Shown: positions 172-7,407 of the stretch, piece by piece
Position numbering within the stretch: the stretch's first letter is position 1
Layout: each line of letters starts with the position of its first letter
From: Bacteriovoracaceae bacterium
Lineage (GTDB): Bacteria > Bdellovibrionota > Bacteriovoracia > Bacteriovoracales > Bacteriovoracaceae
NCBI GenBank assembly: GCA_023701435.1
Contig: JAMPXB010000016.1
Location: 1 to 64,000 of the forward strand
Reading direction: 5' to 3'
DNA: 64,000 nt
Notes under the pieces: model-generated
What the model saw: the letters and a program-made list of their open reading frames with translations, nothing else
The model's database searches: none
Told to the model about the DNA's origin: nothing
Translations under genes and position numbers: made by a program

Positions 172-1287
172 TTATTTCACAGAATCATTGTAAACTTCAA
201 CCGCGCTATACTTAGTTTGAACCTCACTCATCTTAATAAAAGTAATTTCACTTATTCTTAGTTTGTCATACAGATTCTTGCTCGAATAATTAAAAGGAGC
301 GGCGTCATTATTGTCAAAGGCGTAAATAATCTCACTGATATTTGTCATAGCTATGGCCGCAAGACACATAGGACATGGTTGAGCACTGGCATATATCTTA
401 TATCCAGTTAAATCCATTCCACGAATACTTGCTGTCGCTTTTCGGATAGCCTCAAGTTCGGCATGTGAACTAGGGTCAAATGTGGCAAGCATGTTGTTAA
501 CTCCGCTTGCGATAACTTTATTATCTTTGACGATAATAGCACCAAAGGGTCTTCCGCTCTTGGCCTTGTTTTCGATGGCAAGCTCAATTGCTTGTTCTAA
601 AAATGACTGATCACTATTCGTATGCTCCATCTTTTTAGCCCCAGCATTTTTTAAAAGTTCAACGATTTCGTTATGATTTCTTTTTTGGGCATGTTGGAGA
701 GGGCTCACACCATCCTTATCGGGAATACTAATATCAGCGCCGCCCTTAATAAGTTCTCGGATAATATCTTGATGTGTTTTCCCTCCATCACTTAAAATAA
801 TAGCTTCAAGAAGGGCCGTCCATCCCAGTCTGTTGATGTGATTTACATTTATTTTAGTTTTTAAAAGAATTTTGACTGTCTCAAGATGACCTTTCTCTGC
901 CGCTGGAATTAAAGCTGTGCCACCATATCTGTTGGTGCTCTTTAAATCTGCCCCATGCTCGAGTGTCATTAATAGGATTTCATTTCTTCCTTCTGCTCCT
1001 GCAAAAAGATAAGGAGTATCCTGCTTGGCATCTCTGGCATTTACATCTGCACCATTTTTAATAAGAATGCGCGCCATCTCAATTCGATTTAGCTGTGTAG
1101 AAAGTAATAGTGGAGTTCTGCCAATCTCATCTCGAAGCTCAAGTAAGCTTTCCTTCTTCTCAGAAGAGATAATATTTTTAAAAGCATTTAGATCATTATT
1201 GGAAATGGCCTCATGAAGAGAGGTCGCTTGGGCCGGCGATGTCATTAAAATTCCAACGATAGTAAGTAGGTTTGATATCTTTTCCAC
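172..1287 (-). CDS. Secreted ankyrin-repeat protein with C-terminal GuaD/TadA-like nucleoside deaminase domain
   Basis: GTG start after AAGGAA; signal peptide ...TSPAQA; several ankyrin repeats (GRTPLLLSTQLNRIEMARILIKNGADVNARD); deaminase zinc motifs SSHAELEAIRKA and QPCPMCLAAI. Confidence 0.85.
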   Translation of the reverse strand: MEKISNLLTIVGILMTSPAQATSLHEAISNNDLNAFKNIISSEKKESLLELRDEIGRTPLLLSTQLNRIEMARILIKNGADVNARDAKQDTPYLFAGAEGRNEILLMTLEHGADLKSTNRYGGTALIPAAEKGHLETVKILLKTKINVNHINRLGWTALLEAIILSDGGKTHQDIIRELIKGGADISIPDKDGVSPLQHAQKRNHNEIVELLKNAGAKKMEHTNSDQSFLEQAIELAIENKAKSGRPFGAIIVKDNKVIASGVNNMLATFDPSSHAELEAIRKATASIRGMDLTGYKIYASAQPCPMCLAAIAMTNISEIIYAFDNNDAAPFNYSSKNLYDKLRISEITFIKMSEVQTKYSAVEVYNDSVK

Positions 1288-1317
1288 AAAAATTCCTTTT
1301 TTATAGATACCTTATAG

Positions 1318-2055
1318 ATAAAAAAACTTGAAGAAGATTTAAAGTGTAGTCTCTTTGTACGGAATGGGAAGACCGCTTTAACAACACTTGAAGGTGAAAA
1401 ACTTCTTTTGTATGCAAGAAGAATTTGTCACCTAATAGATGAAGCAGAAGAGTCCATTAAGCTTGATCTCTAATATGGATTTGTTAGAGTTGGGGTTCCG
1501 GAAGATATTGCTTCATCATTTATTGCTCCCATTCTAGCAGGAGTCAAAAAAAAATATTCCAAGATACAATTTTCCGTAGCTAGCGGTATTAGTAGAAAAC
1601 TGTGGGAGCAATATCAATCCGGTGATCTCGATATCGTCTTGATAAAGCAGAGGAAAGGGGAAACAGCTGGACTGGCCAGTTGGAAAGAACCCCTTAGGTG
1701 GATCGATCATAAGCAATACAGTAATTTTGATCAGGATATTATTCCTCTCGTAGCATTTTCTGAGAATGGGCTTTATAGAGATGAGATGATTCGATATCTG
1801 GATGAAAAAGGAAAAAAATGGAGAATTTCTTATGAAAGCTCCAGCCTTGCAAGCTTGATTTCTGCCCTAAATATTGGATTCGGTATTACCCTTCTTCCAA
1901 AGAGACTGGTTATGAAAGAGCATAAAATACTCACCGCCAAACAGGGTTTTAATGGCATTGAGGATTATGAATTAGTTCTGCACGTTGGAAGTCTTTCATC
2001 AACACTATCTAAGGAAGTGGCAAATGATCTGATAAAGTCACTAAAAAATTACTGA
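1318..2055 (+). pseudogene. LysR-family transcriptional regulator, 5'-truncated with internal stop
   Basis: In-frame translation IKKLEEDLKCSLFVRNGKTALTTLEGEKLLLYARRICHLIDEAEESIKLDL*YGFVRVGVPEDIASSFIAPILAG...; TAA at 1471-1473; first HTH helices missing; effector domain continues to 2055. Confidence 0.8.
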
Positions 2056-2199: not shown

Positions 2200-3045
2200 T
2201 TGATTATGAAGTCCTCATGGTTGTTATTTTCATTACTGTTTTTTTGGGCAGGGAATCTCAAGGCCAAGGAAATAACATCGCAGGTTCATGCCATTGAAAT
2301 ATCTCCCCACATCCACGAGCCAATGTTGGTTTATCTTTTAAGCGGGGACGTGGCAAAGATTTTTCAGGGTGACGAGTTATTGAATGTCCTGGTGCAGGCA
2401 AAGGAAAATAAGACCTGGCTTAAATTTTCGCTCAATGATGCGCGCGAAATTGAAGGGGCAGCAATCATTAAGTCACCAATCGGTCCTAAACAAACGATGC
2501 TGAAATCGACAAGCTCTGAGACCCCTTCTGTTTTAAACTCGATTAACCTTGCCCGTAAGTTTTTTCGGGAGGCCCGCTACAAGGACAAGGACTCCCAGTG
2601 TTTCAATCGTGCACACGTTTGGAGCTATGAATGGAAAAAAAATAATTACTTGAATTCGGGGAAAATGTTTATCTTCTTTTCCGCCCGCTACATCAGAGAA
2701 AATGATTTTCATTGGTGGTTCCATGTGGCTCCTTATGTTCATGTCGCCATTGGCTCGGAGATAAAGGAACGGGTAATGGACAGAAAGTATCTAAGGGAAC
2801 CTACGAGCGTGAGAGGGTGGATTGATAGATTTATGGCGAAAGAGACAAAGTGTCGGACCGTTGAGGCTTATTCTGACTATGCCAATTATCCTGAGTCCGG
2901 TGAGTGCTATCTTATGCGATCAAGCATGTTCACCTATTGGCCACTGGACCTCGAAGTAGAGGAACTTTACGGAACCAAGAAAAAATCATGGGTACAAGAA
3001 GATCTGCAAAACGCTTATCTAGATGCTTTGGACATCATTCTATAG
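2200..3045 (+). CDS. Exported protein-glutamine glutaminase-like (deamidase) protein
   Basis: Signal peptide; QCFNRAHVWSYEW ... WWFHVAPYVHV ... VMDRKY matches the Cys-His-Asp arrangement of the protein-glutaminase family. Confidence 0.65.
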   Translation: MIMKSSWLLFSLLFFWAGNLKAKEITSQVHAIEISPHIHEPMLVYLLSGDVAKIFQGDELLNVLVQAKENKTWLKFSLNDAREIEGAAIIKSPIGPKQTMLKSTSSETPSVLNSINLARKFFREARYKDKDSQCFNRAHVWSYEWKKNNYLNSGKMFIFFSARYIRENDFHWWFHVAPYVHVAIGSEIKERVMDRKYLREPTSVRGWIDRFMAKETKCRTVEAYSDYANYPESGECYLMRSSMFTYWPLDLEVEELYGTKKKSWVQEDLQNAYLDALDIIL

Positions 3046-6134: not shown

Positions 6135-6428
6135 TCAATTACAAAATATTTTTTGCATAGTTTTAAGTAATTTCACCACATCAGGGTTAGTGACATAGTA
6201 GAAGGAAAAGTTCTTTTCCCGGCGTTGACCTAAAAGACCTTCATTCTGCATGCGTTTTAGAAACTGAGAGGTTTGGGATTGAGATAAACCCACTGCTTCT
6301 TGAATATCGGAAACCTGTTTCTCGCCTTCGCTGAGATAACATAAAATGAGGAGTCTTTGCGGGTGGGCAAAATGCTTTAACAGGCCTGACACCTCAACAC
6401 ATTTATTTTGCATCAATTCAAAATCCAT
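6135..6428 (-). CDS. ArsR-family repressor of the BigR/SqrR/YgaV persulfide-sensor type
   Basis: HPQRLLILCYLSEGEKQVSDIQEAVGLSQSQTSQFLKRMQNEGLL ... KIFCN; Cys in LLILC and Cys at the C-terminus as in YgaV/SqrR. Confidence 0.8.
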   Translation of the reverse strand: MDFELMQNKCVEVSGLLKHFAHPQRLLILCYLSEGEKQVSDIQEAVGLSQSQTSQFLKRMQNEGLLGQRREKNFSFYYVTNPDVVKLLKTMQKIFCN

Positions 6429-6519
6429 AAAAATTCCCTACAATATCAGTCTTATGTGCTTTCAGTACTTATAAGATAATAAAACGTATTGTGATCTTTG
6501 TATTTTTCTTTTAGCCTGG

Positions 6520-6559
6520 TTGACATTATTACATAATTATAATATTATGGAAATGTAAT
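6520..6559 (+). promoter_or_regulatory. Sigma70-like promoter with overlapping palindromic operator for the yeeE/yedE pair
   Basis: TTGACA (6520-6525), 17-nt spacer, TATTAT (6543-6548); ATTACAT (6528-6534) / ATGTAAT (6553-6559) inverted repeat; central palindrome ATAATATTAT (6539-6548). Confidence 0.65.
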
Positions 6560-6580
6560 ATTTGTCAAGGAGTTAACAAT

Positions 6581-6991
6581 ATGGAATCAGTGATAGGTGG
6601 GATGCTAATAGGGGCAGCCGTTAGTATAATGCTGCTCTTTAATGGTCGCATAACAGGTATTAGCGGAATTGTAAGCGGTTTATTGGACACAAAAACACTT
6701 GATAAGAACTGGAGAATTCTGTTTCTTCTAGGACTTATTATAGGTGGGTTTGTTTTTAAACTCGTTCACCCACAATCATTTACTCTCATTTCAAATGCTA
6801 AAACAATGGACTTCATTATTGCTGGGTTTCTGGTTGGTTTCGGAACTCTAATGGGCAATGGCTGTACTTCTGGCCACGGGGTTTGTGGCATTTCCAGAAT
6901 GTCCATCCGGTCAATTACGGCAACAGTCTCTTTCATTGCCGCCGGTGCTGTTAGTGTTGTTCTATTTAAATTATTGAGAGGAAGTTTATGA
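6581..6991 (+). CDS. YeeE/YedE family sulfur transporter, first half
   Basis: MGNGCTSGHGVCGISRMS signature, multiple TM helices. Confidence 0.9.
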   Translation: MESVIGGMLIGAAVSIMLLFNGRITGISGIVSGLLDTKTLDKNWRILFLLGLIIGGFVFKLVHPQSFTLISNAKTMDFIIAGFLVGFGTLMGNGCTSGHGVCGISRMSIRSITATVSFIAAGAVSVVLFKLLRGSL

Positions 6992-7407
6992 AAGGTTTAA
7001 TTTCTTTAATCGTTGGTATCATTTTCTCTATTGGACTTGCTTATAGTGGCATGACTCAACCTCATATCGTACGTGGCTTTCTGGATTTCTTTGGAAACTG
7101 GGATCCGCGATTAGTGGGAGTTATGGGCGGAGCCATTTTGGTACACGGGATTTCTTATTATTTTATCAAGAAACGTACGTCCCCTTTGCTTCATACCACT
7201 TTCCATCTTCCTACCAAGAAGGACATTGATTCCCGACTGATTATGGGAGCTTTGATTTTTGGTCTGGGGTGGGGATGGGCAGGCATTTGTCCTGGTCCGG
7301 GAATTGTTTCTATGGTTACCGGTGAACCGGCCTTCTTCTACTTTATTGGTTCAATGTTGATTGGAATGAAAACCTTCCAGATCCTGGAAAGAAGAAAAAG
7401 TCTTTAA
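6988..7407 (+). CDS. YeeE/YedE family sulfur transporter, second half
   Basis: GLGWGWAGICPGPGIVSM signature; 4-bp overlap with previous gene. Confidence 0.9.
   Translation: MKGLISLIVGIIFSIGLAYSGMTQPHIVRGFLDFFGNWDPRLVGVMGGAILVHGISYYFIKKRTSPLLHTTFHLPTKKDIDSRLIMGALIFGLGWGWAGICPGPGIVSMVTGEPAFFYFIGSMLIGMKTFQILERRKSL

Follow-up and report, generated by a model that had tools for sequence, protein, structure and literature searches.

The solved proteins that lie nearest to the deaminase half of the protein described here, by sequence and by the fold of its model, are guanine and guanosine deaminases. Bacillus subtilis GuaD (1wkq, 1tiy) and Arabidopsis guanosine deaminase (7dbf) have the fold and the HAE and PCPMC zinc site in common with it, and its identity to GuaD is 40% over about 119 columns; however, the solved chains are without an ankyrin domain, and the C-terminal segment of our protein is divergent. 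The ankyrin half has a solved homologue in the Acinetobacter ankyrin PDB 5d66, which matches residues 23–218 (227 bits) but is a separate, unfused protein. A precedent for an ankyrin protein as the companion of an enzyme is AnkB of Pseudomonas aeruginosa, a periplasmic ankyrin protein encoded beside the catalase KatB, which it assists (Howell 2000, cited in PMC7567364 and PMC3091734). That pair resembles the present locus in that an ankyrin protein, periplasmic there and predicted to be so here, is encoded beside an enzyme, but the enzyme is a catalase and the two proteins are separate; the likeness drawn here is one of arrangement. A search of the available literature found no description of an ankyrin-deaminase operon or fusion.

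The gene lies near one end of the window (the whole stretch of 64,000 nucleotides from a Bacteriovoracaceae genome that was analysed), where it occupies positions 172–1287 of the minus strand as a single frame of 371 codons with a GTG start, a TAA stop at 172–174 and no internal stop. A ribosome-binding site, AAGGAA (1293–1298, minus strand), is found 5 nt upstream of the start. Reading along the minus strand, the product begins with a predicted Sec-type signal peptide, MEKISNLLTIVGILMTSPAQA (residues 1–21; 1225–1287), in which a home-made scorer recognised an h-region and an A-Q-A cleavage motif; this is followed by the ankyrin-repeat domain (residues 23–218; 634–1221; Pfam Ank_2, 4.4e-36) and by a zinc deaminase domain (residues 221–371; 175–627), of which residues 224–323 match PF00383 (5e-22). 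The HAE motif (residues 275–277; 457–465), with the zinc ligand His275 and the proton-shuttle Glu277, is invariant in the deaminase alignment, as are both cysteines of the PCPMC motif (residues 304–308; 364–378), the zinc ligands Cys305 and Cys308. The deaminase domain was modelled with AlphaFold at a pLDDT of 95, and the full-length protein, in a single-sequence prediction, with one of 48.5. The frame, the Pfam matches, the 5d66 alignment and the motifs thus bear out what the earlier note had read from the sequence, namely a signal peptide, ankyrin repeats and a zinc deaminase core in one protein.

The distribution of this arrangement was followed in 88 loci carrying the ankyrin gene, collected from plasmid and phage protein searches and from a scan of genome contigs of which the best 80 of 576 relatives were taken. 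In this sample the deaminase gene stands directly after the ankyrin gene in 56 loci and before it in two, and was not found in 30. The 56 ankyrin-first pairs are mostly from the Pseudomonadota, and include one from Bacteriovorax sp. BSW11_IV; their intergenic gaps are of −4 to +36 nt, apart from a single gap of 111, as expected of operons. In the same sample, a divergent LysR gene accompanies 40 of the 56 pairs and a downstream CynX/NimT-type transporter gene 41, the transporter being absent from the other 15 and from BSW11_IV. The search for the same architecture, suggested in the earlier note, thus returned no fused gene among the 58 loci with both genes (the contig part again being the best 80 of 576 relatives); what it did return, at 56 loci, was the same two proteins encoded by adjoining separate genes.

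Variants of the neighbourhood were also seen. At L073:4914–6505 and L090:4944–6512 the same ankyrin gene is followed directly by a gene for (S)-ureidoglycine aminohydrolase, with a CynX-like transporter and a LysR gene nearby at L090, and at L079:5595–7169 and L104:5697–7178 the next gene encodes an amidohydrolase-type enzyme, the N-terminus of which resembles a signal peptide, and a divergent LysR gene is present. Three records that carry the cassette (L024, L025 and L028) are labelled as plasmid (3.7–4.1 Mb) or phage and are chromosome-like by length or gene content.

Compared with the cassettes of Acinetobacter (CAKLQH020000001) and Paracoccus aminovorans plasmid IV, in which LysR, ankyrin and deaminase genes occur with a CynX/NimT-type transporter, the window has a homologous 5d66-type ankyrin gene, complete with its N-terminal signal peptide, followed directly by a homologous deaminase that belongs to the same clade, in the same gene order and with a divergent LysR. 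It differs in that the two genes are one, the LysR is a broken pseudogene and an insertion sequence (IS) end stands in place of the transporter, a frequent but optional member for which no match was found in the genome. The fusion is real and has no second example in the sample searched; the cassette to which its parts belong is widespread, apparently undescribed, linked to LysR and metabolic-looking, and occurs in many non-predatory bacteria. Within the phylum the ankyrin gene was found, at the threshold used, in only 9 of 369 genomes; seven of the nine come from a single genus in a different family, and no deaminase adjoins the gene in the stretches fetched from that genus.

The closest relative of the locus is that of BSW11_IV, from the same family (also represented by L054 and L169), in which LysR, ankyrin and deaminase are three intact genes. 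The window and BSW11_IV are sisters in the trees of both halves (100/95 for the ankyrin, 100/86 for the deaminase), and the next branch for the deaminase is a separate enzyme gene from the window's own genus, G018 (100/99). Where BSW11_IV reads AAA TAA AAAAGAGAGAATA ATG GAA ACA, the window reads AAA AAG ATG GAG CAT, so that the ankyrin stop codon and the deaminase ribosome-binding site are absent, and residue 221 of the fusion, which aligns with the deaminase start METHETF of BSW11_IV, is the former start methionine. Comparison with this one relative suggests that the stop codon and the ribosome-binding site were lost by deletion. At columns that are at least 95% conserved, the window and BSW11_IV depart at three and four of 60 ankyrin positions, respectively, and at seven each of 36 deaminase positions; as its conserved sites have not changed more than those of the relative, the fusion gene was probably under selection until recently.

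The surroundings of the gene are damaged. The LysR remnant (1315–2055, plus strand; 58% identity to the BSW11_IV LysR, 1.4e-95) keeps residues 44–289, lacks the DNA-binding part and has one internal stop codon at 1471. The distance from residue 44 to the ankyrin start, compared between the window and BSW11_IV, indicates that about 180 bp have gone, including the DNA-binding end of LysR and the shared promoter region, and no convincing minus-strand promoter was recognised just upstream of the fusion gene. With regulator and promoter damaged, expression may be altered or lost, and the gene may be silent. On the other side, 6–9 bp past the stop codon, lies the end of a multi-copy IS (1–165, unstranded), with five other copies in the genome at 96–100%, one of them at another contig start, which accounts for the contig ending here. 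The earlier note had placed the gene between an IS end and a broken gene, and this is confirmed. It had also taken the truncated gene as a sign of lateral acquisition, which is not borne out, since the broken gene proves to be the regulator of the cassette itself, which has decayed where it stood, and the ankyrin and deaminase halves alike group with the same-family relative.

The signal peptide belongs with the ankyrin half: the home-made scorer found one in 84 of the 88 ankyrin genes and in 2 of the 58 deaminases (contig part, best 80 of 576 relatives), and its presence in nearly all relatives of the ankyrin half makes export plausible. As the separate deaminases mostly lack a signal peptide, the fusion would carry out of the cytoplasm a domain that usually stays there. 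The two exceptions have the reverse gene order, in which an apparently exported deaminase is encoded beside an exported ankyrin, and thus an exported form is not impossible. At these loci (L108:4878–5986 and L109:4728–5911) the signal-peptide deaminase gene comes before the ankyrin gene, and twin arginines are present in L108.

With regard to the reaction, the deaminase half has the HAE and PCxxC zinc site and the cytidine-deaminase fold of the GuaD group, and fell short of the NCBIfam TadA equivalog cut-off (65.9 bits against 150). From its family, the enzyme would be expected to act on a purine-type base or nucleoside in free form, guanine for example, and to release ammonia. However, a C-terminal tryptophan segment common in the deaminase family is absent from the window protein, BSW11_IV and G018, and the divergence of this segment leaves the substrate uncertain. 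In Rhizobium and Shinella the neighbour of the same ankyrin gene is (S)-ureidoglycine aminohydrolase, an enzyme of purine catabolism, which fits a use of purine nitrogen. The genome encodes one member of the xanthine-dehydrogenase/aldehyde-oxidase family.

On balance the explanation that we hold probable is that the two genes of a conserved cassette fused in frame in this lineage alone, at a locus that is damaged, and that a guanine-deaminase-like enzyme would be exported as a result. In the ancestor, a LysR gene would have faced an operon in which the gene for an exported ankyrin protein came before a distinct gene for a guanine/guanosine-deaminase-like enzyme, with a CynX/NimT-type transporter gene often following; the window lineage would have lost the stop codon of the ankyrin gene together with the ribosome-binding site of the deaminase, so that both are read as one chain, and some 180 bp with the DNA-binding end of LysR and the shared promoter region would also have gone. 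An IS abuts the other end. The product would be a Sec-exported, periplasmic ankyrin protein with an intact zinc deaminase at its C-terminus, acting on a purine such as guanine, and the ankyrin half may serve as a binding or stabilising companion, by analogy with periplasmic AnkB and its catalase. The locus is perhaps deregulated. Against this explanation, the fusion occurs in one genome only and near a contig end, and export of the deaminase would conflict with its separate relatives, almost all of which appear to lack a signal peptide; the missing tryptophan segment, with its bearing on the substrate, and the chance that the gene is silent also count against it.

That the fusion is a working periplasmic purine deaminase, carried out of the cytoplasm by the ankyrin signal peptide in a relative of predatory bacteria, is a tentative proposal which we think may well prove wrong. 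If true, the ankyrin protein and the deaminase would act together, as a natural fusion (a 'Rosetta stone' protein) suggests, and the cell would have an extracytoplasmic step in purine use. Across the 88 sampled loci the ankyrin looks exported and the deaminase cytosolic, yet the genes travel together; the fusion makes the compartment in which the two work directly testable.

Ordinary two-protein biology could persist if the deaminase were still cytosolic, whether translated from Met221 or because the signal peptide is inefficient, and the fusion would then be neutral. The alignment of Met221 with the separate start in BSW11_IV and the lack of a signal peptide in 56 of 58 related deaminases are what one would expect of this, but we regard it as unlikely, as the BSW11_IV ribosome-binding site, AGAGAG, has gone, leaving AAAAAG abutting the ATG or GGGG about 9–12 nt away, and as the reverse-order loci put a signal peptide of its own on a deaminase whose neighbour is an exported ankyrin. 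With the internal ribosome-binding site gone, one long product is the more likely outcome. It is also conceivable that IS, regulator and promoter loss and fusion are all steps in the death of a non-working cassette. The LysR pseudogene, the 180 bp missing with the promoter region, the IS within 6–9 bp of the stop, the want of a convincing upstream promoter and the rarity of the ankyrin gene in the phylum (those 9 of 369 genomes) would agree with such decay, whereas 371 open codons, catalytic residues that are all intact, conserved sites without excess changes, a good ribosome-binding site and a confidently predicted deaminase fold make it a rather doubtful account; an intact gene would nevertheless fit, because a cassette that had stopped being expressed only recently would look no different. 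A join of two separate genes by assembly or base-calling error is very improbable: although there is one genome only and its contig ends at a repeat 171 bp from the gene, the junction (near 625) is about 625 bp away from the contig end, and several bases, with stop codon and ribosome-binding site together, are missing relative to BSW11_IV, not one base.

The earlier note had proposed an exported effector or toxin, and the presence of signal peptide, ankyrin repeats and deaminase within one protein makes it tempting to read the gene as one directed against prey or competitors, the more so as the nearest named relative is a predator (PMC4511183) and the protein passes the Pfam threshold of the MafB19-like toxin-deaminases (PF14437, 69 bits). 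However, the TadA of the same genome reaches 118.7 bits on PF14437, every separate deaminase tested also matches it, and the window protein scores better on PF00383; the MafB19 match is therefore not diagnostic. No immunity gene adjoins the fusion, the neighbours being the IS end and the LysR remnant, no toxin-delivery domain was found in the protein with Pfam, and no polymorphic-toxin organisation was seen at the locus. The cassette, moreover, is common in non-predators, with transporter and LysR, and its deaminase has guanine and guanosine deaminases as closest kin. The toxin reading is accordingly unsupported and, in our judgement, hardly credible; the locus resembles a metabolic operon that has been rearranged more than it does a toxin gene. 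What stands of the earlier interpretation is the fusion, its signal peptide and catalytic motifs and, as plausible, export; the toxin and lateral-acquisition parts do not.

Several other origins were considered and set aside. A phage-borne gene was rejected, as the IMG/VR matches are mainly to distant ankyrins, and in the 'phage' record that did match well, secretion-system and other bacterial genes surround the match. A defence gene was likewise rejected, the PADLOC matches being ankyrin or deaminase cross-matches. Recent lateral transfer from the Pseudomonadota is unsupported, both halves grouping with BSW11_IV and sequence composition giving no signal either way, and truncation of the deaminase C-terminus by the IS was dismissed because the deaminases of BSW11_IV and G018 stop at much the same point. 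Beyond the LysR remnant, the window encodes, at 2200–3045, a protein-glutaminase domain (PF18626, 9.9e-13) in a protein whose N-terminus has a hydrophobic stretch and, at 6135–7407, a small ArsR-like regulator pointing away from a tandem pair of YeeE/YedE-type sulphur-transport genes (PF04143, DUF6691).
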